From the IMG/VR virus record IMGVR_UViG_3300033273_000374, positions 64,001 to 128,000 of that record: DNA of 64,000 nt; one strand, given 5' to 3'. The notes under the pieces are model-generated. The model was not told the origin of the DNA. It was given only the letters and a program-made list of their open reading frames with translations, and did no database searches. This DNA comes from a virus. Position numbers and translations under genes: made by a program. Positions 1 to 61,754 of this stretch are shown here, in pieces; position 1 is the stretch's first letter, and each line of letters opens with the position of its first letter.

Positions 1-1005
1 TGCGTCAACTGATTGCTGAAGTTTTTTACGGTCTGCTGCTGGTAATGGAATTAGTCCTTTATCAATTGCAGTACCTTCGTCGCCAATAGTTCTTTCGCTA
101 ACAAACCATTGCACATATTGTTTTAGGTTTGGAATGCTGTTTAAGTGTTCTTTCTTTACATAAAAGTAAAGTGAACGGCTAACTTTGTACTTGCCACCTG
201 CAATGTTTTCAAATGTTGGTTGTGCACCTTCTACAGTTGCACCTTGAATCTTGTCAGTGTTGGCGTCTAGGAAACTAAAGCCAAACACGCCAAATGCTTT
301 TGGATTAGCCACTAGTTTTTGTACAATTAGGTTATCGTTTTCGCCTGCTTCAATAAAAGCACCATCTTCACGAAGTGTGTGTGCTATTGCTTTGAATGCT
401 TTTTTGTTGTCTTTGCGTAAGTCTTTTAGTTCTTTGATTTGTTTTGCTCCACCTTCCATTGCAATTTCTACAAATGCATCTCTTGTGCCTGATGTTGGTG
501 GCGGCCCTAAAACTTCAATCTGCTGGTTGGGGAGATCGCTACGCACGTCTTTCCATGTTTTGTATGGATTTGGTATCATTCCACCCTTACCATCTGGCAC
601 ATTCTTAGCTAGTGCTAGGAATACATCTTTAAGGGTCAGTGAAACCTTTTCACCCTGCTTTGAGTTAGCAATTACAATGCCGTCAAAACCAATTTTTACT
701 TCAAGTGGTGTAACGCCATTTGCCTTACATGTTTCAATTTCTTTTGCTTTTATTGCACGACTTGCATTTGTTAAGTCCGGGTGCTGTACGCCTATGCCAG
801 CACAAAATAGCTTCATGCCACCACCTGTGCCAGTCGATTCAATAATAGGTGCTTTGTTGCCGTTTTTGGCAAATGTTTCGGCAGCCACAGTTGCAAAAGG
901 AAAGACTGTAGATGAACCTACAGTCTTGATTTGTTCTCTTGCTACTGCTACTGTGGTTGTTGCAGCCAAAGTTAGTGCTGCTAATGTTACTAATAATTGT
1001 CTCAT
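1..1005 (-). CDS. pstS: Phosphate-binding periplasmic protein PstS (3' end beyond window)
   Basis: Substrate-binding protein of the PstSCAB phosphate ABC transporter. It would bind phosphate in the host periplasm and pass it to the host PstCA permease. The frame runs 335 codons from ATG at 1005 to the left edge without a stop, so the C-terminus is missing. Residues 1-22 form a Sec signal peptide ending AVA. GSSTVFPF (30-37), STGTGGG (57-63) and TSGTRDAF (171-178) are the family's phosphate-contact segments. An AGGGAG Shine-Dalgarno site precedes the ATG. The promoter region carries a Pho-box-like array (1051-1098), so induction by host PhoB under phosphate starvation is likely. Phage pstS genes are well known from marine T4-like phages. 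Confidence 0.95.
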   Translation of the reverse strand, partial: MRQLLVTLAALTLAATTTVAVAREQIKTVGSSTVFPFATVAAETFAKNGNKAPIIESTGTGGGMKLFCAGIGVQHPDLTNASRAIKAKEIETCKANGVTPLEVKIGFDGIVIANSKQGEKVSLTLKDVFLALAKNVPDGKGGMIPNPYKTWKDVRSDLPNQQIEVLGPPPTSGTRDAFVEIAMEGGAKQIKELKDLRKDNKKAFKAIAHTLREDGAFIEAGENDNLIVQKLVANPKAFGVFGFSFLDANTDKIQGATVEGAQPTFENIAGGKYKVSRSLYFYVKKEHLNSIPNLKQYVQWFVSERTIGDEGTAIDKGLIPLPAADRKKLQQSVDA

Positions 1006-1050
1006 ACCTGTGTCTCCCTTGTGTATGATGCAACTATTTAAACATAGGTA

Positions 1051-1098
1051 TGTTACAAACCTGTTACATTTTTGTTAAAGTTATGTTATTTTTTGTTA
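1051..1098 (-). promoter_or_regulatory. Pho-box-like array upstream of pstS
   Basis: On the plus strand the pentamer TGTTA begins at 1051, 1062, 1073, 1084 and 1094: five half-sites spaced 11, 11, 11 and 10 bp. Read toward pstS these are TAACA units. PhoB boxes are direct repeats of 7-bp half-sites at 11-bp pitch that replace the -35 element. The array ends 46 bp upstream of the pstS ATG, a suitable distance. It also lies between pstS and the divergent gene at 1129 and could act on both. Function is inferred from pattern and context. Confidence 0.75.
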
Positions 1099-1128
1099 GG
1101 TGTTTTCAAAAAACTTAAATAAAATATC

Positions 1129-3021
1129 ATGCATAATCTTTACCTTGTTCAAACTGTGGACAAATATGGTCCAAATAGTTTTCTACCATTGGCAATATCA
1201 TATCAATGGATGTTTGCACAAACCGACACCTGCGTTGCTGAAAATTTTGAAGTGGTAGATGTCTTAATTTCTAAAAAATCTCCGGCAAAATATGTACAAG
1301 AAATGCCATGCAAACCTGATGTAGTAGCTATGAGTTGTTATGTTTGGAATTGGTCATACAATCAACAGTTAGCCAAAGAAATAAAAAAAGTATACCCAGA
1401 CTGTTTAATTGTTGTAGGTGGACCAAATGTTGATAAACGTAATCATTTATTTTTCTCTGAATATCCAAATTTTGATATTGCAGTACTTGGCGAAGGTGAA
1501 CTAGCATTTAAGGAAATACTACTTAGATATCACCAAGGGCAAACCTATAAAAATATTCCACATGTATTTGTTAAGGGTGGAGAAATCTGCGAGCAACCGC
1601 AACGAATTTTAGATGTAAACAGTATTCCTAGTCCTATATTAAATGGTTTTTATGATAAAATTATAGAAAAAGTTGAACAGGAAATTGGTACACAACGCTG
1701 GCAAGTAACATATGAAACTCTAAGAGGCTGTCCGTATAGATGTAGTTTTTGTGATATTGGTGATACCTATTGGACTAAACTAACAAAATTTAATCTAGAC
1801 AGAGTGTTTGCAGAAATAGACTGGATGAGTGAAAAACAGATTGAGTATATAGGTGTTTGTGATAGTAATTGGGGCATGCTTGCAAGAGATAAAGAAATTA
1901 CAGAATATGTTATTCAAAAGAAATTAAGTACCGGTTACCCAATGGTATGGGATGTGACTTGGGCAAAATCTAATAGCAAACGAATCTACGAAATTGCGCA
2001 GGCTGATAAAAAGGCAAACACAAATCTATTCAAAGGTATTACTTTTGCTATGCAGAGTTTGAACAAACCCACGCAAGAAGCATCTCGCCGTACTAATCTA
2101 AAAAGCGACGAAGCTCTAGCCTATATGAAGTTATATGATAAAGAAAACATACCCACTTATAGTGAACTTATATGGCCTATGCCTAATGAAACCTACCAAA
2201 GTCTTAAGGAAAATATTCAAACATTAATTAGTATGGGACAGAAAAGTTTCCTAATGGTACATCCACTGGTACTCACTTATAACGCTGAAATGGGTGCAAA
2301 AGAATATCAAGACACTTATCATATGAAATGGAACGAAGTGCCTCTTGACACATATTACCTAAACATTGAAGATTTAGATGACTATATTATAGAAAAAACC
2401 ATGGCTGTCTATGAAACAAATACTGCTGACAGAGCGCAGTCTATACGTGGACACTTGTTTTCTTACTTGTTTATATTGATGTATTATTACGGATGGGGAC
2501 ATTTTATAATGGAATACATGTTTAACAAATATCAAGTAAAACATATAGATTTCATTGAAATTATGTTAAACTACTTTATAGCAAAAAATAGTCTCATAGG
2601 TAGTGAAATTAGACAAACTGAAAAAACTATGATTGATGTCTATCACGGTAATAGATTTTGGGGAAGGAAAGTTTTTAAGGACGATATTTTTTGGGAATAC
2701 AGAGGTGCAAGTAGTGTTGTTTTTCATAACCGTAGAAAGGAACTTGCAAAAGAGCTTAAAAAATTCTGCATTGATGTATTTAATATTAATATTTCAAATG
2801 TAGTAAAATTTAACATGGATATGTGTTTTGATAACACTATAGATTATCCAATCAGAAGAACTTACACCAACGATACACTAACCCATTGTGTTGGAGTTAA
2901 CAATAAAAAAACTGTTACAATTTCACACAGAAGTAAGAAACGTCTTAACGATAACGATTTCTACCACATCACTTATCATTATCAACGTAAAAACAGATAT
3001 TGGAAATGTGATATTATTTAG
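1129..3021 (+). CDS. B12-binding-domain radical SAM protein
   Basis: Likely a cobalamin-dependent radical SAM enzyme of 630 residues; the substrate cannot be read from sequence. The N-terminal third looks like a B12-binding fold, with VVGGPN near 95-100 and LGEGE near 120-124. The radical SAM cluster motif C201-x3-C205-x2-C208 sits in RGCPYRCSFCD. The long C-terminal part has no motif I recognise. It diverges from pstS across the Pho-like array and its 3' end overlaps the convergent gene at 3014 by 8 bp. A methyltransferase or another radical rearrangement enzyme are both possible. Confidence 0.85.
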   Translation: MHNLYLVQTVDKYGPNSFLPLAISYQWMFAQTDTCVAENFEVVDVLISKKSPAKYVQEMPCKPDVVAMSCYVWNWSYNQQLAKEIKKVYPDCLIVVGGPNVDKRNHLFFSEYPNFDIAVLGEGELAFKEILLRYHQGQTYKNIPHVFVKGGEICEQPQRILDVNSIPSPILNGFYDKIIEKVEQEIGTQRWQVTYETLRGCPYRCSFCDIGDTYWTKLTKFNLDRVFAEIDWMSEKQIEYIGVCDSNWGMLARDKEITEYVIQKKLSTGYPMVWDVTWAKSNSKRIYEIAQADKKANTNLFKGITFAMQSLNKPTQEASRRTNLKSDEALAYMKLYDKENIPTYSELIWPMPNETYQSLKENIQTLISMGQKSFLMVHPLVLTYNAEMGAKEYQDTYHMKWNEVPLDTYYLNIEDLDDYIIEKTMAVYETNTADRAQSIRGHLFSYLFILMYYYGWGHFIMEYMFNKYQVKHIDFIEIMLNYFIAKNSLIGSEIRQTEKTMIDVYHGNRFWGRKVFKDDIFWEYRGASSVVFHNRRKELAKELKKFCIDVFNINISNVVKFNMDMCFDNTIDYPIRRTYTNDTLTHCVGVNNKKTVTISHRSKKRLNDNDFYHITYHYQRKNRYWKCDII

Positions 3022-5890: not shown

Positions 5891-6552
5891 ATTTCTATCA
5901 CTTTGTTATAGGTTGAGAACAAACGCAGTGTTTGATCACTGGCAATGCCAGTTACTAGAAGTGTACAGCGTGGATTGTGTCCGGCATTTGCTGTACAATG
6001 AGGAACGTTGTACCAGTCAAAACTGTATATTTCTCCTGCACGATACCCTGTGTGAACAAAGTTTCCATACTGTATAAAATGTCCAGGTTCCCAGTCATTG
6101 AGCATTACCATAAAACGATATACACTGTGCGGATCATCCTTGTTCCATTTCTCAAGTTTATCTATGTGCAGATTCCATACCTGTCCAGGCAGTTGTATAT
6201 GCACACGACTTTGAATTGGTTTTTCAGTGTTAGACTTTAAACACAAAGCATCTGTCATTCGCTGAAATACTGGCAGTAAATCATATTCTAAATTAGTCAA
6301 TACTAAATTAGGATCAGCCCCACTACGAACTAAATCATACTCTTCAAGTTCTATTTCTAAACTTGTGCCGTCAATAGGATTGCGATTACGCCATGTAATT
6401 GCTTTACTACTTGAAATAGTTTGTGCTAGTTCTTTGCTCCAATCTCCTTTAAAGCGACCGGCATAGCGCATTGCATCATATGCCGGATCGCTCACAAAAG
6501 GATCAAAGTGATAGTCTGTCCTGGGCTTCAATTTGTCCCAGTTACTTTCCAT
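5887..6552 (-). CDS. 2-oxoglutarate/Fe(II)-dependent oxygenase-like protein
   Basis: 221 residues with a jelly-roll 2OG-Fe(II) signature: H129-x-D131 (LHIDK) and a distal H185 (NVPHCTANAG) followed by RCTLLVTG. YRFMVMLNDWEPGHF between them resembles JmjC or aspartyl-hydroxylase-like folds. Such enzymes hydroxylate proteins, nucleic acids or small molecules using Fe(II) and 2OG; the substrate is unknown. It is the last large gene of an operon with tctA and tctC (the start touches the tctC stop). The link to transported 2-oxoacids is only a suggestion. Confidence 0.75.
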   Translation of the reverse strand: MESNWDKLKPRTDYHFDPFVSDPAYDAMRYAGRFKGDWSKELAQTISSSKAITWRNRNPIDGTSLEIELEEYDLVRSGADPNLVLTNLEYDLLPVFQRMTDALCLKSNTEKPIQSRVHIQLPGQVWNLHIDKLEKWNKDDPHSVYRFMVMLNDWEPGHFIQYGNFVHTGYRAGEIYSFDWYNVPHCTANAGHNPRCTLLVTGIASDQTLRLFSTYNKVIEI

Positions 6553-7604
6553 TATTTTACTAGTTCTGGCTTATAAATGCTTTTTAGTCCTAGTGCTTCT
6601 TTGTTAAACTTAACTAGGTTTTTAAGTGCATCTTCTGTAACAAATGTCATTAGTGTATCACGCATTTGATCACCATCTACACCAATAAACCATTCATACT
6701 TGCCATTCTTTGCTTCAATAGCAGCCATTGATTCTGCATCATTTTTCATAGCATACATTGCTGCAATCATACGTTTGCGTAGTTTTTCATTGCCTTTGTT
6801 AACCCAGATAGCTTTTTGTAAGCCATCGCGGAAACTTTTTACAAGTTTGTATGCATCGTAAAACTCGCCACTTGGTTTCACATTCCAACGCTTTTCAAAG
6901 ATTTGTTCAACTTGATAACCAGCTGGATAGTTTGTATCATCTATGTGATTGCCTGTTTTTGGATCTAGTAGTCCGTGATGAAACCAAAGTTCTGCATTCT
7001 TGTCTGGCTCAACATGCTTTTGATATGTTGCTGGATTTTCACGAGTACCGTTTAAATCACCACGCTTGAATGCAAGGCGTCTTTCACTGCCGCTCATGCC
7101 TTTTACCCATGTAACCTTTTCTTTGAAACATGCAATGTATTCATCTACAGTTTTGTCTGGGCCGCACAACATCAGTGTTATTGCAAATGCTTCTGGTACC
7201 ATTCCTGATCCTGCTGGAAAACGTGGTTTGCTCATATCATCGCCAATGCGCTTGCCTGCAATGATGTTTAGATTCATAAGACCTACACTGTCATACTCAG
7301 CATAATTGTAGTCAACTTGCTCTTGCAAGAAACTTACACCATTACCGCCGTGTGTAACTACAATTGTATTTTCGTCAAATCGTAGTTTGTTGTGCCAGGC
7401 ATTGATTCCTGGAATGTCACGTGCGCCTGGAATAAGACGCAATGTAATTTTTTCACCGAGATGTTTTTCAAGTTCTTTTTTAACAATCTCAGCCCACACT
7501 GTGGTACCTTGTCCCGGCTTTTGCGGAACAACCATTGTCACTTCTGCCATTGCTGAAGTAAACATAAACAAGGATGCTACGATCCCTAGTACTAGATTTT
7601 TCAT
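6552..7604 (-). CDS. tctC: Tripartite tricarboxylate transporter receptor TctC
   Basis: Periplasmic substrate-binding protein of the TctC/Bug family, 350 residues. Residues 1-20 form a signal peptide (SLFMFTSAMAEV). VVPQKPGQGTTVWAEIV is the usual N-terminal binding strand and glycine loop of the family, and PGARDIPGINAWHN follows. It would capture a carboxylate in the periplasm for the TctA membrane subunit encoded just upstream (9-bp gap, Shine-Dalgarno GGAGAT). The small TctB subunit is missing here and might come from the host. The substrate (citrate, other carboxylates, terephthalate-like acids) is not predictable. Confidence 0.85.
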   Translation of the reverse strand: MKNLVLGIVASLFMFTSAMAEVTMVVPQKPGQGTTVWAEIVKKELEKHLGEKITLRLIPGARDIPGINAWHNKLRFDENTIVVTHGGNGVSFLQEQVDYNYAEYDSVGLMNLNIIAGKRIGDDMSKPRFPAGSGMVPEAFAITLMLCGPDKTVDEYIACFKEKVTWVKGMSGSERRLAFKRGDLNGTRENPATYQKHVEPDKNAELWFHHGLLDPKTGNHIDDTNYPAGYQVEQIFEKRWNVKPSGEFYDAYKLVKSFRDGLQKAIWVNKGNEKLRKRMIAAMYAMKNDAESMAAIEAKNGKYEWFIGVDGDQMRDTLMTFVTEDALKNLVKFNKEALGLKSIYKPELVK

Positions 7605-7613
7605 TTATATCTC

Positions 7614-9065
7614 CTAAACAAAATCTATTCTTGCTTTATTAAAAAATATTCCCCATATTGCAGCACAAACTGCCAAAGTTAGAAATATTAAAGGTAGTGG
7701 TTCAAGAAGCAAGTTACTCCAACCATAACCAAATGTGTTAAACTGAACCCAACTGGCTTCTAGTCTAGCACTTAAAATGTAGCCTATTAAAAAACTAACA
7801 CGGCTAAATTTAGTAAACTTTAATACCATACCTGCACAACAGCAAATTGCTAACATAGCATAATCGTTGAACATGCCTGTGTATTGTGTGCTTGCCCAAA
7901 TCAAACTAGCCAATATGGGCCAAAAGTAATAACGAAACGGAACGTTTGTTATGTAAACTGCATACTTGATAAAGCCATAACTTATAGGAAGTATGATTAA
8001 CAAACTCCATAGGTAACTACTAAGCAGTGTATCAAAAAATTGTTGATCTGCAAGTACACTTGGTGTACCTAGTTCAAGGCCCACATACATCAGCAGTCCC
8101 ATTACAATAACTTCAAAAGGTGCACCAGGTATACCAAACAACACTGTAGGAACATAACTGGTTGCTTTTTGTGCATTATTAGCACCTTCGCATCCAATAA
8201 CACCGCGGACATGTCCTTGGCCAACATTCTCGCCATCGCGTTTACCTAGTGCAACTGTTTGGCTGTATGCAAACCAATCTGCAATTGCACCGCCAATTCC
8301 AGGAATCAATCCAATGAAACCTCCAATAAAGCCGCCGCGCAATCCATCCCATTTATATTGCCAGGTATCCTTTACACCCTGTATTAACTGTGCTACAATA
8401 ACACCATTGGTGAGCTTTACACGTTCTGCCTTCATTTGGTATGCACTTAGTAATTCTGGAAATGCAAGAACACCTGCCATTATAGGAATTATCTGTACAC
8501 CATCACCTAGGTATTCCCATCCCATTGTCCAGCGTGGACTTGCTGTGTTAGGATCCATTCCTATGTGTCCTACAGCAACTCCTAATACAAGTGCAAGGGC
8601 GCCGCGAAACCAATACTTACTGCTAACGAATATCACACAAGTCATAGCAAATATCAAAAAGCTAAACATTTCTACTGTACCAAAATATAACACAATATTT
8701 GTATACCATGGCAAAAATAAGAACACCAACAGTCCCCATATTAGTCCATTAATCCAACTTGTGCTAATGGCTGCACTGAGTGCGCGAGCAGCTTCGCCAC
8801 GTCTGGACATTGGAAATCCATCTACCATGGTCGCTGCCGCTCCGCCTGCTCCTGGAATGTTCATTACAACACCACAGAAACTATCTCCTATGCTACTGGT
8901 CACAACAACTGCCGTGGTAAACACCACTAACATGTAAGGATCCTCAAAGTAGCCTACAAAACTGTAGATTGCAATAAGTCCTGTTGTAGCACCTGCTACG
9001 GGTATTAGTCCTACAAAGAAGCCGTAAAAGACTCCTAGTAGAAGTACAATGATATATGTGTCCAT
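7614..9065 (-). CDS. tctA: Tripartite tricarboxylate transporter permease TctA
   Basis: Large membrane subunit of a TctABC secondary transporter, 483 residues and full length for the family (about 500). Many hydrophobic helices are present. Diagnostic motifs are NIPGAGGAAATMVDGFPM with RRGEAARAL near residues 68-95, and the second repeat GLIPGIGGAIADW. I chose ATG 9065 because the frame upstream of it (to 9092) lacks a Shine-Dalgarno site and membrane character. It leads an operon tctA-tctC-oxygenase-membrane protein. A hairpin-forming region (9123-9166) lies upstream. Confidence 0.9.
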   Translation of the reverse strand: MDTYIIVLLLGVFYGFFVGLIPVAGATTGLIAIYSFVGYFEDPYMLVVFTTAVVVTSSIGDSFCGVVMNIPGAGGAAATMVDGFPMSRRGEAARALSAAISTSWINGLIWGLLVFLFLPWYTNIVLYFGTVEMFSFLIFAMTCVIFVSSKYWFRGALALVLGVAVGHIGMDPNTASPRWTMGWEYLGDGVQIIPIMAGVLAFPELLSAYQMKAERVKLTNGVIVAQLIQGVKDTWQYKWDGLRGGFIGGFIGLIPGIGGAIADWFAYSQTVALGKRDGENVGQGHVRGVIGCEGANNAQKATSYVPTVLFGIPGAPFEVIVMGLLMYVGLELGTPSVLADQQFFDTLLSSYLWSLLIILPISYGFIKYAVYITNVPFRYYFWPILASLIWASTQYTGMFNDYAMLAICCCAGMVLKFTKFSRVSFLIGYILSARLEASWVQFNTFGYGWSNLLLEPLPLIFLTLAVCAAIWGIFFNKARIDFV

Positions 9066-9122
9066 AGGAATACCGCAGGAGTACACCAGCACCCTGCGCC
9101 TTTTCTAGTTTTTTTAGGAAGT

Positions 9123-42722: not shown

Positions 42723-42880
42723 GTAATTTTACCAGTTGGCTTGACCAACAAAACTCAGCTACACAAGCATATTTTAGACAACATCCTGTATGGAGCAACG
42801 AACACATGTATTTTGGGATTAGTTGTGGTTTTGTATGTGGTGTACTTGTAACTTGGTTACTGATGTCTATTTTGAAGTAG
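42719..42880 (+). CDS. Small membrane protein, 53 aa
   Basis: ATG 42719 overlaps the upstream stop as ATGA. Polar N-terminal half (WLDQQNSATQAYFRQHPVW) and one C-terminal transmembrane helix (ISCGFVCGVLVTWLLMSIL). The 3' end overlaps the convergent cyclase gene by 14 bp. Function unknown. Confidence 0.65.
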   Translation: MSNFTSWLDQQNSATQAYFRQHPVWSNEHMYFGISCGFVCGVLVTWLLMSILK

Positions 42881-44879
42881 CGTGGTATACGCCTGACCAA
42901 TCTGCAGGTTTTCCAGCACTCATACGCTCAGTCATTTTGTCATAATACTCAGACATACTAGGTGCTGCTGACTTGTATTTTTCTACGTCACGGAACACTA
43001 CATCCCATTTGCCTGCATAATAGTTTTTGAGGAATTCCTTGTGCTGCTTGGTTTCTTTGTGCAGTGTGTAAATGCGCAGAGGAAGTTCTTTACCTTTAAC
43101 GGCAATATTATCTAACTCCCACCAATCAAAATCATCACTGGTCGCAGCAACAGTGTCTGGTCCTGCGATCATTAGCACACCATAACTTTTTGTTTGTGAT
43201 TCTAATCGTGCTGCTACACTAACTGGATCTCCCAAACAGTCATAGCCCATTTTACGGTCACTGCCAATGTTGCCCACAAGTATTAGTCCTGTGTTTATAC
43301 CTGCACCCATTCCAACCGGAGGCTTGCCGTCCTGTGCTAGTTCAAGATTAAATTGTTCAACTGCATCCAGCATGTCTTTGATTGTGCGCACACCATCATA
43401 GGCATGACGCTCATTGTCTAAAGGTGCACCGTGTATGTGCATACTAGCATCACCAATAAACTTGATAAGTGTGCCATTGTTATCAAGCACAGGGTTGGCA
43501 ATAGCAGTCATATAGCGATTCATTACAGTTGTAAATCCTTCAACGTCTGCACCATAACTTTCGCCAAGTCCTGTGAAGTTGCGCATGTCAGTCATTACAC
43601 AAGTGAGCATTTTTTCTTCGCCGCCCAGTCGTATTAGGCTTGGATCTTTTTGCAGTTGTTCAACCACTGTTGGATTTACATATGTTCCAAACTGCTTTTT
43701 GATCTGTTGCTTTTGGAAAAACTCTAATACAAATCTGTTGAACACTGCATGGAAGCCTGTGAGCACAGTTGTAACAAGTGGCATAGTGCCATCAATCAAA
43801 AACAGTTTGGTTGTCCAAGCATAGTAAGGTGCATATATTACACCTCCTGCAAACACAAGTATTGCGCCGCCTACAAACCAATATGGTGTAAAACGTGCAA
43901 GAATGACCAATAACAATCCTAGTATGCCTGTTGCTGCTAGTTCAGCGATGTTGCCCCACCATGGACGTGTGATTTGATCACCGTCTATCATAGTTTGCAG
44001 TGTGATTGCTGTTGGAATAAAACTAAACTTTTCACCTACAGGTGTTGCAACCAGTGTGGTTGTGCCTGCTGCAGTGGGTGCAATTATGACTGTGCGTCCA
44101 GCAAACGAACTAAAGTCATCATTGGCAGCACTGATTGTTTCAAAGTCTTTGTTGTAACGTAACCATATTCTAGTAAATGGATCTGTGTTAACAATAGGAT
44201 ATCCAGGTATGCGGATCTTTTCAACACCTGCTGGAGAACTTTTGATTTGATAACTTGGTGCACCTGTTGCAACACGAATAACTTCTACAGCCAATGAAGG
44301 ATATGTTTCTTCACCAATACGCATTATAAGAGGAACACGACGCACAACACCATCAATTTCAGATGCAGTGTTGGCAACACCAACACCTGGTGCGTTCAAC
44401 CCTAACAGTGGAATAGGACCTAACATACCATCCCATTCGTATAGGAAAGGCAATGGGTCACCTATTTTAGCAACACCACGTGGTACACCATTACGGTTTA
44501 TGTCTGTGCTGCCTGTTTGTGCAATAACAATTGCATTATCAACCAGTGCTTCTGCAAGTGCTTGGTCACCACCCAATCTATCTTCTTCACTCATTATAAC
44601 TGGTAGCACAATAACGCCTGCACCCTGTTCGCGCAACTTCCAAATTATGTCTGCCAGTTGACTACGATTCCAAGGCCATTGGCCATACTTTTCTATTGCT
44701 GCTTCGTCTATAGCAACAACGCCAATGTCTTTGCTTGTTTGTGGAGTATCTGTTTGTTGTAGTAAATCAAACTGTTTGAGTCTGAGTGTTTCTACTACTG
44801 TGCTGTCTTGATAGTGTACAAACAGTAGCAGCAACGCTGTGATTGCTGCTACTGTCCAGTGTGTGATTACTTTAAACAT
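42867..44879 (-). CDS. CHASE2-domain adenylate cyclase
   Basis: 670 residues. It would make cAMP from ATP in the host cytoplasm in response to a periplasmic signal. An N-terminal helix (about 10-24), a CHASE2 sensor (about 30-305) and three helices (about 312-385) precede a class III cyclase (about 422-610). Metal Asp431 (TDMRNFT) and Asp477 (KFIGDA) and both adenine-specifying residues, Lys473 and Asp547 (YDCLG), are present. Arg558 is kept, but the transition-state Asn is Ser554 (DPVSVAARLE). It is the last gene of the curli-like operon. Confidence 0.92.
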   Translation of the reverse strand: MFKVITHWTVAAITALLLLFVHYQDSTVVETLRLKQFDLLQQTDTPQTSKDIGVVAIDEAAIEKYGQWPWNRSQLADIIWKLREQGAGVIVLPVIMSEEDRLGGDQALAEALVDNAIVIAQTGSTDINRNGVPRGVAKIGDPLPFLYEWDGMLGPIPLLGLNAPGVGVANTASEIDGVVRRVPLIMRIGEETYPSLAVEVIRVATGAPSYQIKSSPAGVEKIRIPGYPIVNTDPFTRIWLRYNKDFETISAANDDFSSFAGRTVIIAPTAAGTTTLVATPVGEKFSFIPTAITLQTMIDGDQITRPWWGNIAELAATGILGLLLVILARFTPYWFVGGAILVFAGGVIYAPYYAWTTKLFLIDGTMPLVTTVLTGFHAVFNRFVLEFFQKQQIKKQFGTYVNPTVVEQLQKDPSLIRLGGEEKMLTCVMTDMRNFTGLGESYGADVEGFTTVMNRYMTAIANPVLDNNGTLIKFIGDASMHIHGAPLDNERHAYDGVRTIKDMLDAVEQFNLELAQDGKPPVGMGAGINTGLILVGNIGSDRKMGYDCLGDPVSVAARLESQTKSYGVLMIAGPDTVAATSDDFDWWELDNIAVKGKELPLRIYTLHKETKQHKEFLKNYYAGKWDVVFRDVEKYKSAAPSMSEYYDKMTERMSAGKPADWSGVYHATSK

Positions 44880-47041: not shown

Positions 47042-47380
47042 TTAGTTTTGTGTTACAGTTACTGAACATCCACCTTGCGTAGTGCAATATTGAGTTACTG
47101 TTGCACTAAAATTATCACCATTTTGGTAAACGTTAGTAGTTGTTGGTTGTGTTCCTGTTTGTTCTATTGTAAAAGTGTTATAATTGCCATCTTGTACTAC
47201 ATTAACTGTATTATAATTACCATTGACATAAACATCTAAATCGTTGTCTTGCCCATTTTTTTGTATAAGAGATAGTTCTATGCTATCTCCGTATGCCTCT
47301 AAGAATATATCATTGGCCCACACACTACCACCAAATAGTATTAGAACGATGCTACTGCTTTTGACGAATCGTGATAACAT
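47042..47380 (-). CDS. Curlin-repeat protein (CsgA/CsgB-like, short)
   Basis: 112 residues. Signal peptide (SSIVLILFGGSVWA), then curlin-type repeats of the S-x5-Q-x-G-x2-N kind: LSLIQKNGQDNDLDVYVNG, VVQDGNYNTFTIEQTG and NVYQNGDNFSATV. Curlins polymerise into amyloid fibres outside the cell after export through CsgG. It ends VTVTQN, and its start overlaps the end of the FecR-domain gene by 29 bp. A minor or nucleating subunit (CsgB role) is plausible. Confidence 0.8.
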   Translation of the reverse strand: MLSRFVKSSSIVLILFGGSVWANDIFLEAYGDSIELSLIQKNGQDNDLDVYVNGNYNTVNVVQDGNYNTFTIEQTGTQPTTTNVYQNGDNFSATVTQYCTTQGGCSVTVTQN

Positions 47381-48479
47381 TGTTTGGTGCTGCTCCTGTG
47401 TCTAAACTCAATGTATAGTTCTCAATTATACTACCATTTTGATCAATGTTAAGTGTATAATCATAACTTTGACTTAAGGTTAATCTAATATAGTTGCCTG
47501 TGCCATCATCACGTATGACCACAAAGTCTGGATCTTGATTGAGTATTGAAATGTTTTTGTCTGCTTTGTAGCCAAATATTTCCTCTTTGGCAATGTCTGC
47601 AAATTCGCTTTTTAAAAGTGCTGCTAGTTCAGCGTTGCTGCGATCTAGTGCATCAAACAAAAACTCCAATGCCAATGGATCATAATCTAATTCTGTATAC
47701 CAAGTTTCTTTTTCGTCAATACCCAGTAAATCTTGATCCAATCCATCAAACTCTAAAAAATCTAAACCCAATACATCTACTAAATCATTGACTCTTGCTC
47801 GTTCTTCTTCTTCATCTATATATACTGGTTTGCGTACAATAATCAAATTGCTAATAAATGTTTCATCTGGATCTAACAGCAAGGGTCTCTGTGGAGCCGA
47901 ATCAACGGCGGAAACGGTAGTGGCTTGGAAGGCTTGGTTGAGAACTACCTGTCCCACATCCGACTCCACAGAGATTTCTCCAACTGTACACAGAGCTTTG
48001 CTCCCTATTTGTGTACAACTGGGTAACAGTATGACAGTACTTTGACCAATCTCATCAACACTCATACTAAAGTCTGTGCCTCGCACAGCAATAGTTGCAG
48101 TGGGAGTTCTGATCTTAATGTTCTGTCTTGAATTCTTTGCTATTTGACCACTGGCATATCTCACAGTGCCAAGTGCTGCTTTGATACTAAGAGCACCAGT
48201 CTTAGTATTAGGATCGTAAACAAACTCGTCTATGAGCAGTTTACTGTGTTCAGTGACATCCACTCTTGTGTCATCAACAAACTGTATTGAAGTACGACCT
48301 CTTGCTGTTTTAACAGTATCATAACTTTCTACATCTGTGCCTTTGTCCACCGTCAAAGCCTCGCCTCCTTTGCGTTCAATCATGGTATTGCCCTTTTGTT
48401 CAATAACATCACCTATAGAGGCAAGGCTTTGCGTGGTTGAGAGAACTAACAATGCTAGGGTTATGAATACTTTATACAT
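47352..48479 (-). CDS. FecR-domain periplasmic protein
   Basis: 375 residues, signal peptide 1-20. Residues 25-150 form a FecR domain (VESYDTVKTARGRTSIQFVD; TPTATIAVRGTDFSMSV). The acidic C-terminal region (about 215-290) and the final LDTGAAPNNVITIRQ, rich in curlin-like Q/N strands, are unusual. FecR domains usually act in signalling or bind extracellular polymers. Lying between two curlin genes, it may bind fibre subunits or sense them for the cyclase. Confidence 0.82.
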   Translation of the reverse strand: MYKVFITLALLVLSTTQSLASIGDVIEQKGNTMIERKGGEALTVDKGTDVESYDTVKTARGRTSIQFVDDTRVDVTEHSKLLIDEFVYDPNTKTGALSIKAALGTVRYASGQIAKNSRQNIKIRTPTATIAVRGTDFSMSVDEIGQSTVILLPSCTQIGSKALCTVGEISVESDVGQVVLNQAFQATTVSAVDSAPQRPLLLDPDETFISNLIIVRKPVYIDEEEERARVNDLVDVLGLDFLEFDGLDQDLLGIDEKETWYTELDYDPLALEFLFDALDRSNAELAALLKSEFADIAKEEIFGYKADKNISILNQDPDFVVIRDDGTGNYIRLTLSQSYDYTLNIDQNGSIIENYTLSLDTGAAPNNVITIRQKQ

Positions 48480-48481
48480 TG

Positions 48482-49201
48482 TTAGTCGCTCTGTGTTATA
48501 TCAACATCAAAACTATCACCATTGATGGTTAGGTCAACAGTATTGTCATAGACACCACTTTGTGTGATATCAACAGTACCGCCGCCACCGGTGACATCTA
48601 AGTCAATGGTATGTCCTGCACTATCACCGTTGCCGTCTACATCGATTGTAACTGCAACACCTTCGTCGCTGTTTGCACTTGTTGTTGCTAGACTTGAACT
48701 GTTGTCAACAGCCACTGTGATATTAGCATTGGTACCATCTAAACTGGTGTTGATAATGTTGTTGTCGCCTGTGACTGTAAATGCCACAGTCGCACTATCA
48801 GCATCACTGGTTTCACCAATGTTGATTGTGTAATCGTTGTCACTACCGGTGTTTGTTACATTAAGTGTAACAGTATCACAGTTTCCTGCGGCTGAGCTAC
48901 TACACAACAATGCAATACTGTTGCTGTCACCTGTAATACTCCAAGTACCTGTGTAGGTTGCTCCTTTGATGGTTGCTGCTATGGTATTGTAACTACCTGT
49001 TTGGGTAATTGCAAATGTCATATTATCACCATTTAAGGTTACACCTGTAGTTGAAGTTCCGATTACGTTGTCCTGTCCATCTTGTGTGATATCTAAGTCC
49101 AAACTATCGCCACTTTGCGTAATGTATATGTCATTAGCAAATGTGACAGTTGCAAAAAATAGAATACTCAAGACAGCGAACAATTCTACTGCGCTTCTCA
49201 T
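48482..49201 (-). CDS. Curlin-repeat protein (CsgA-like, long)
   Basis: 239 residues. Signal peptide (ELFAVLSILFFATVTFA), then DIYITQSGDSLDLDITQDGQ and many further D/Q/N-G-N strands (MTFAITQTGSYNTIAATIKG; VDITQSGVYDNTVDLTING). This is the Q-x-G-x2-N curlin pattern, in about eight degenerate copies. It should be the main fibre subunit. It follows csgG with a 4-bp ATGA overlap and precedes the FecR gene by 2 bp. Confidence 0.82.
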   Translation of the reverse strand: MRSAVELFAVLSILFFATVTFANDIYITQSGDSLDLDITQDGQDNVIGTSTTGVTLNGDNMTFAITQTGSYNTIAATIKGATYTGTWSITGDSNSIALLCSSSAAGNCDTVTLNVTNTGSDNDYTINIGETSDADSATVAFTVTGDNNIINTSLDGTNANITVAVDNSSSLATTSANSDEGVAVTIDVDGNGDSAGHTIDLDVTGGGGTVDITQSGVYDNTVDLTINGDSFDVDITQSD

Positions 49202-50043
49202 TTTTTCTCTCCTGCAGTATTAGGCTTACCGTTAGGATAATATCCTATGACCTTGTTGCCATAGTATTTTCCTTTGAATTTCCAGAAGCCTTTAATTTCT
49301 CCCTGTTTTACTAGTTCTGCAACCGCTGCCTCGATTGCTGCTTTTACTGCATAACTAGTAGGTTCATTCACTGCATACCCTGCCTCAACCTCCAGGGCTT
49401 TAGTACCTAAATCAAGGAACCTAAATACATCTCCGCCAGTGCTATGGCTGAGAATTGTTTTTTGTGTGAGTACAGTGAGCAATATCTCACCTGTTTGCAC
49501 ACTTACAATGCGCATGGCTATTGTAATCTGATCTACTCTATATTGTGTGTTGGCACCAATGCCAAAGTACCTAGCACCAATACCACCTGATTGTGTGTTG
49601 CTGTCATACCCAACAACACCACCATCGATGAGCAGTCCAGCGTATTTTAATGCTTTGAGAGGACTTTTACCATCATTAAAGGTTTCTGCTGTACTGCGTA
49701 TGAGTTGTCGTTCTTTTGTAAGATTTTGTAGTCCACCACGTTCTAGCACTGTGAACCACGTTTCATTGCCTATGTTTTTTAAGGCCTCTATAACATAAAC
49801 TTCACTGCCTTGTGTAACAGCACTGCTCAGTTGACTAAAACGTTCGTTGGGTTTACGCTGTCCAGTTTTGTCTGTAAACTCGTAAACAGCAATAGGAATT
49901 TTTGGGCCATCTAGTTCTGGAATTTCTGCTATCACAGGAACAGGGGCTGGTGCTAGTTCGGGTTGTTTGTTCACGTCATTGTGTGCACCGCATCCTGCAA
50001 GTGCCAGACCAATGACGATGATTGGTAAAAGACGCTTGAACAT
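49198..50043 (-). CDS. csgG: Curli secretion channel CsgG
   Basis: 281 residues, full length (E. coli 277). The lipobox LAGC (Cys at 18) anchors it in the outer membrane, where nine subunits form the curlin export pore. Family segments are very clear: IAVYEFTDKTGQRKPNERFS, VLERGGLQNLTKERQLIR, GIGARYFGIGANTQYRVDQI, TKTILS-like TQKTILSHS and GYAVNEPTS. Upstream is csgF (3-bp gap), downstream curlin genes. It allows curlin secretion if CsgE-like help is not needed or is host-supplied. Confidence 0.95.
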   Translation of the reverse strand: MFKRLLPIIVIGLALAGCGAHNDVNKQPELAPAPVPVIAEIPELDGPKIPIAVYEFTDKTGQRKPNERFSQLSSAVTQGSEVYVIEALKNIGNETWFTVLERGGLQNLTKERQLIRSTAETFNDGKSPLKALKYAGLLIDGGVVGYDSNTQSGGIGARYFGIGANTQYRVDQITIAMRIVSVQTGEILLTVLTQKTILSHSTGGDVFRFLDLGTKALEVEAGYAVNEPTSYAVKAAIEAAVAELVKQGEIKGFWKFKGKYYGNKVIGYYPNGKPNTAGEKK

Positions 50044-61396: not shown

Positions 61397-61416
61397 ATTT
61401 GAAACTCCTCTAATGG

Positions 61417-61424
61417 TATTTATA
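61417..61424 (-). promoter_or_regulatory. T4-type late promoter (TATAAATA)
   Basis: A perfect octamer 20 bp upstream of the ATG at 61396. Confidence 0.7.
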
Positions 61425-61427
61425 AAG

Positions 61428-61452
61428 AAAAAGCACCCATTAAGGGTGCTTT
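61428..61452 (-). terminator. Intrinsic terminator of the tmRNA gene
   Basis: AAAGCACCC / GGGTGCTTT, nine pairs with a five-base loop; the 3' arm runs into five T on the minus strand. Confidence 0.9.
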
Positions 61453-61718
61453 AGGTGCCGGATTCTGTTTCGAGGCTCCGGCGGGCCCAGTGGATTATGC
61501 CGCTAAAGGCATATCCTCATCTGCAAAATTATCGTTTGCGTTTGTTTTGTTTGCTTGATTTACGGTCATCGCCTACCGGTAACTCCACGTTCTCTATTGC
61601 ATCAGTCGATCCCTATCACCCCCTCAAAGCACACTCAGCGAATGTGTTTTAAGTGAATGGTGGAGGTGGGGAGAATTGAACTCCCGTCCTGCCTGCCGTC
61701 AATTGGCTTCAACGTTAC
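61430..61718 (-). ncRNA. ssrA: Circularly permuted two-piece tmRNA
   Basis: The tRNA 3' part comes first: T arm GGGAG-TTCAATT-CTCCC, acceptor CACCTCC, A, CCA ending at 61658. After a 34-nt spacer (61624-61657) the coding piece begins at 61623 with GGGGGTG, which pairs with CACCTCC through a G3:U70 alanine pair. The tag frame ends TAA at 61495-61497 and encodes ANDNFADEDMPLAA (or five residues more if the first GCA, 61554, is the resume codon). The order is that of alphaproteobacterial permuted tmRNAs. It rescues stalled ribosomes and tags proteins for Clp proteases. Late promoter at 61724-61731, terminator at 61428. Confidence 0.93.
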
Positions 61719-61723
61719 AAGTA

Positions 61724-61731
61724 TATTTATA
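61724..61731 (-). promoter_or_regulatory. T4-type late promoter of the tmRNA
   Basis: A perfect TATAAATA; the start point would be near 61718, giving a precursor of about 290 nt. Confidence 0.7.
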
Positions 61732-61754
61732 GCAGATAATTACATCTTAGTCAA

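Follow-up and report, generated by a model that had tools for sequence, protein, structure and literature searches.

In cyanophages, control of a phage-borne pstS gene by the host is established: pstS of P-SSM2 and of other T4-like cyanophages is under the control of the host's PhoBR system (PMC10976474, PMC3037559). These reports bear out one statement of an earlier sequence-only reading of the DNA analyzed here, namely that cyanophage pstS genes answer to host PhoB. A Pho box is composed of two 11-nt direct units (PMC4415409). The consensus in E. coli is CTGTCAT-A(AT)A(TA)-CTGT(CA)A(CT) (PMC3465305), and cyanobacterial Pho boxes have the form CTTA-N7-CTTA or PyTTAAPyPyT/A (PMC10976474, PMC3037559). 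Predicted phage Pho boxes are reported to be unreliable without binding assays and often to fail binding tests (PMC10976474). A search of the openly accessible literature, which includes few papers from subscription journals, turned up no report of a Pho box at pstS in a phage of a heterotrophic proteobacterium.

We analyzed a window of 64,000 nucleotides, which corresponds to bases 64,001-128,000 of a 202,913-bp virus record. The virus is a large phage of marine type. In this window, pstS (minus strand, start codon at 1005) and a gene for a radical SAM protein (plus strand, start at 1129) diverge from a gap of 123 bp. The pstS product matches the Pfam family PF12849 (E = 1.5e-43) and a phosphate-binding protein of known structure (PDB 9jwy, E = 6e-89); its match to TIGR02136 scores under the cut-off of that family. 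The features of the locus, in window coordinates, are as follows. (L008 is a related locus that is described below.)

1-1005, minus strand: pstS, which encodes the periplasmic phosphate-binding protein of a high-affinity phosphate transporter
1014-1020, minus strand: ribosome-binding site of pstS, AAGGGAG, read from the sequence
1035-1041, minus strand: TTAAATA, in which the putative -10 element TTAAAT (1041-1036) overlaps a T4-like late core, TAAATA (1040-1035)
1051-1057, minus strand: half-site 1, TGTAACA, the closest to pstS; kept in L008
1062-1068, minus strand: half-site 2, TGTAACA; kept in L008
1073-1079, minus strand: half-site 3, TTTAACA; kept in L008
1084-1090, minus strand: half-site 4, AATAACA, weak; kept in L008
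1094-1098, minus strand: half-site 5, TAACA, weak and after a 10-bp step; degenerate in L008 (TAAGA)
1063-1080, minus strand: best 18-bp candidate Pho box, CTTTAACAAAAATGTAAC, formed by half-sites 3 and 2; rank 1 with the mixed matrix
1116-1121, plus strand: TAAATA, a late-type core of the radical SAM gene, distinct from the Pho array
1129-3021, plus strand: gene for a B12-binding radical SAM protein (Pfam PF02310 and PF04055)

The sequence-only reading had reported five copies of TGTTA before pstS, and both their positions and their spacings are confirmed: on the plus strand, the copies start at 1051, 1062, 1073, 1084, and 1094, in steps of 11, 11, 11, and 10 bp. The repeat stands, but the strand does not, as TGTTA is written on the strand opposite pstS. 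On the pstS strand, the array reads TNTAAC; from distal to proximal, its half-sites are CTAACA, ATAACA, TTTAACA, TGTAACA, and TGTAACA. TGTAAC matches the form of a Pho half-site, TGT(C/A)A(C/T). The five copies form direct repeats of 7+4 nt in an 11-bp register, as in a Pho box. When every pentamer is considered over the full 202,913 bp of the record, this is the sole chain with at least four copies at 11±1 bp, and no such chain arose in 25 order-3 Markov genomes of equal size. We propose, with a probability of about 80%, that a host-type Pho promoter drives the phage's pstS and that the array is a PhoB site, as predicted from its sequence.

Matrix searches and a comparison with bacterial pstS promoters support the view, put forward in the sequence-only reading, that the array probably consists of Pho-box half-sites. 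Unseeded motif discovery on 70 non-redundant bacterial pstS upstream regions, from PstS relatives of the phage, yielded CTGTCATAAAACTGTCAt, which agrees with the published Pho consensus (PMC3465305). Of the 405,792 positions that this mixed matrix scored in the phage genome, the minus-strand site at 1063-1080 ranks first. When the best upstream scores of 271 ORFs are compared, pstS comes first with about 14.9, and the runner-up gene has 10.7. The Pho-matrix score of the pstS gap has p = 8e-4 within the gap. The mean maximum in shuffled genomes was 17.2 bits, which exceeds the observed score of about 14.8-14.9, so the score alone is unexceptional genome-wide; it counts by its location, not in itself. 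We also built an alphaproteobacteria-only matrix from 27 promoters, a check that the sequence-only reading had proposed; the Pho-box reading passed it, with a reservation about the strand. The gap between pstS and the radical SAM gene again heads the upstream list, but the minus-strand site is only at rank 14, and the plus-strand sequence TGTTACAAACCTGTTACA is at rank 3. The preference of this matrix for the plus-strand reading arises from the fact that TGTTACA is the reverse complement of TGTAACA.

The spacing between the array and the putative -10 element is also that of a Pho promoter. In bacterial pstS promoters, the offsets of TAnnnT peak at 16 and 27, measured from the TGT in the half-site nearest the gene. 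On the pstS strand of the phage, TTAAAT follows at an offset of 16 nt, counted from the T of the final TGTAAC. The hexamer itself is non-canonical, as it lacks the customary A at the second position of the -10 element. TTAAAT is found at the same offset in two diverged viral loci (L275 and L294) and is also conserved in L008, while another viral locus (L351) has TATAGT. Transcription of pstS is expected to start near 1029.

To see how other viral pstS genes compare, we used a set of 60 non-redundant pstS upstream regions from IMG/VR contigs, which are presumably viral; loci with detected pstC, pstA, or pstB neighbors were excluded. With the bacterial matrix, 17 of the 60 regions had p ≤ 0.01, where 0.6 would be expected. 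(Matches from Acinetobacter phage MD-2021a lie in a pst operon of the usual bacterial kind, and we counted them as bacterial. L053, or CAKLQF020000007.1, which is filed under this phage, carries a pst operon and genes for amino-acid metabolism and looks like bacterial chromosome.)

The sequence-only reading had also proposed a comparison with the pstS promoter of SAR11, and this came out in its favor. Small AT-rich alphaproteobacterial genomes, which are probably SAR11-like and resemble SAR11 in size and composition, have pstS boxes such as TTGTAACAAAAATGTAAC (L375), TTGTAACAAAACTTTAAC (L358), and similar sequences. The phage box, CTTTAACAAAAATGTAAC, is nearly the same as TTGTAACAAAAATGTAAC. 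Given this resemblance, the phage box is written in the dialect of the AT-rich alphaproteobacteria.

Among cellular proteins, the phage's PstS is closest to those of Kiloniella and other Rhodospirillales (66-69% identity). The phage terminase is 54% identical to that of Pseudomonas phage PA5oct and 51% identical to those of Sinorhizobium phage Phosso and Agrobacterium phage Atu_ph07. On its minus strand, the window contains a permuted tmRNA gene (61404-61752) with the tag ANDNFADEDMPLAA, which in our view resembles those of alphaproteobacteria. To judge from these sequences, the phage probably infects an alphaproteobacterium; the sequence-only reading had suggested the same kind of host, which is plausible given the PstS relatives and the tmRNA tag.

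The window also includes nine tRNA genes, and its minus strand carries several further genes. The gene at 42867-44879 combines a CHASE2 sensor with the catalytic domain of a nucleotide cyclase, so that the phage encodes a cyclase receptor of the membrane type. A curli-like cluster (47042-50043) encodes CsgG, two curlin-repeat proteins, and a FecR-domain protein. At 6552-9092, a protein of the TctA family (tripartite tricarboxylate transporters) is encoded beside a protein of 350 amino acids. This neighbor has a signal-like N-terminus and no match in Pfam, and it may be the binding protein of the TctA family transporter.

Could the array be an element of the phage instead of a PhoB site? It might be a repeat for terminase binding or replication, or it might be a set of phased A-tracts that curve the DNA. 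We searched viral contigs for the pattern TGTAAC-N5-TGTAAC-N5-TNTAAC, whose half-site order is reversed relative to the pstS locus, so that it cannot detect that locus, and we found at least 120 stretches. Among the matches listed, none had pstS in the surrounding DNA, and the gene after the array was often short. For instance, L059, L060, L069, L073, L123, and L137 have 11-bp TGTAAC arrays about 40-80 bp before short genes (about 150 amino acids). The product of the gene downstream of the array in L073 matches terminase small subunits. The TGTAAC arrays before terminase-type genes are possibly sites for packaging proteins that mimic Pho boxes. Also, the region before the phage's pstS is A-rich and is phased at about one helical turn. 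But the gene for the terminase large subunit is about 130 kb away from pstS in the record, the array is spaced from the -10 element as in bacterial Pho promoters, and diverged viral contigs have Pho boxes before pstS as well. We consider a phage element very improbable.

If the array is a regulatory site, which protein reads it? We considered a regulator encoded by the phage and dropped this idea, because the 202,913-bp phage record (which may be incomplete) encodes no OmpR-type Trans_reg_C domain (PF00486) and no Response_reg domain (PF00072). In the absence of an OmpR-family regulator from the phage, a host factor must read the array, and the simplest candidate is PhoB. Another candidate is CtrA, the OmpR-family cell-cycle regulator of alphaproteobacteria. 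The CtrA site, TTAA-N7-TTAAC, also has a spacing of 11 bp. The gap contains two overlapping 8/9 matches to this consensus, where about 0.04 would be expected from the 69 such sites in the genome; there are no 9/9 matches in the gap. However, the two half-sites that are proximal to pstS have GTAAC, not TTAAC, and GTAAC is used by other viral pstS promoters. Also, pstS is a classic gene of the Pho regulon. These observations make CtrA a very improbable reader, and we favor host PhoB.

The array lies between divergent genes, and the sequence-only reading had suggested that it could act on the radical SAM gene as well. This suggestion did not hold up. The plus-strand sequence TGTTACAAACCTGTTACA does fit the matrices: the mixed one places it at rank 27 and, as mentioned above, the alphaproteobacteria-only one places it at rank 3. 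But L008, whose PstS is 91% identical, has the same upstream neighbor gene with no radical SAM gene in between. The DNA homology between L008 and the window starts at the array (at half-site 5) and continues into pstS. Four half-sites are retained in L008, together with the -10 region and with the site for ribosome binding (sequence GGGAGACACA). Since the array is retained without the radical SAM gene, it belongs to pstS; it is upstream of, and conserved with, a Pho-regulon gene. Furthermore, in ten relatives of this radical SAM gene, no pstS is nearby and the upstream DNA lacks a convincing Pho site. In the plus-strand reading, the offsets of 16 and 27 from the proximal half-sites hold no -10 element, and a separate TAAATA core, at 1116, belongs to the radical SAM gene itself. 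It is highly improbable that the array serves the radical SAM gene or both genes.

Finally, although the half-sites are AT-rich and the distal end is degenerate, it is scarcely credible that TNTAAC repeats arose by chance in AT-rich intergenic DNA, given the lack of such chains in the 25 simulated genomes, the conservation of four half-sites along with pstS in L008, and the matrix score within the gap (p = 8e-4).

If the array is a PhoB site, the promoter would work as follows. When phosphate is low, phosphorylated PhoB from the host would bind the 11-bp half-sites head-to-tail, most strongly at 1051-1080. The bound PhoB would position the host's RNA polymerase at TTAAAT (1041-1036), which would turn pstS on. 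The additional PstS from the phage would supply the host's PstCAB transporter during infection. Thus, a starved host probably turns on the phage's pstS. The sequences show the repeat, its likeness to bacterial Pho boxes, its distance from the -10 element, its conservation alongside pstS, and the absence of an OmpR-type regulator from the phage record; the binding of PhoB, the response to phosphate, the identity of the host, and the benefit to the phage are what we infer.

The -10 region might have a second role. The sequence around it, TTTAAATA, matches the core of T4-type late promoters, TATAAATA, at 7 of 8 positions. Upstream of the phage's genes, TAAATA is strongly enriched: it occurs 55 times in the sense orientation and 18 times in the antisense orientation, and ATAAATA is enriched about 22-fold before genes. 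Such an enrichment of TAAATA is expected for T4-type late promoters. (TTGACA is likewise sense-enriched in the phage record, 33 versus 10.) Across viral pstS promoters, the phase between half-sites and TAAATA peaks where expected, with z = 2.4, but the signal is weak (z = 1.4) if the window and L008 are left out. A 7-sequence profile gave no convincing homolog of the late sigma factor gp55, in a record that may be incomplete and for a protein that diverges fast. The overlap of the putative -10 element with TAAATA suggests two regulatory inputs. We tentatively consider a hybrid promoter, in which host PhoB and sigma-70 would act early and the phage's late machinery would act later via TAAATA, with a shared start site; this is a possibility that we would not bet on.

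Together, this locus and the viral set suggest that phages of heterotrophic proteobacteria also sense phosphate via the PhoB of their hosts. They also suggest that a phage operator can be written in the host's own sequence dialect, and the dialect of the box may be of use in finding the hosts of phages that are uncultured.

Compared to the Pho promoters of bacterial pstS genes (E. coli and alphaproteobacteria), the phage's promoter shares the 11-bp direct half-sites, the form TGT(C/A)A(C/T), and the offset of 16 to the -10 element. It differs in that the array is more degenerate, is AT-rich, has TTAAAT in place of TAnnnT, and is carried by a phage. The likeness to T4-type late promoters (TATAAATA) lies in the presence of TTTAAATA before pstS and in the enrichment of TAAATA before the phage's genes. 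Classical T4-type late promoters require neither a -35 element nor an activator site, whereas the phage's pstS promoter bears a Pho array at the place of the -35 element or activator. The cyanophages offer the same arrangement of a phage pstS gene with a host Pho box upstream, in T4-related phages. In contrast to theirs, the box described here is of the proteobacterial TGTAAC type, has five half-sites, and belongs to a phage whose host is likely an alphaproteobacterium.
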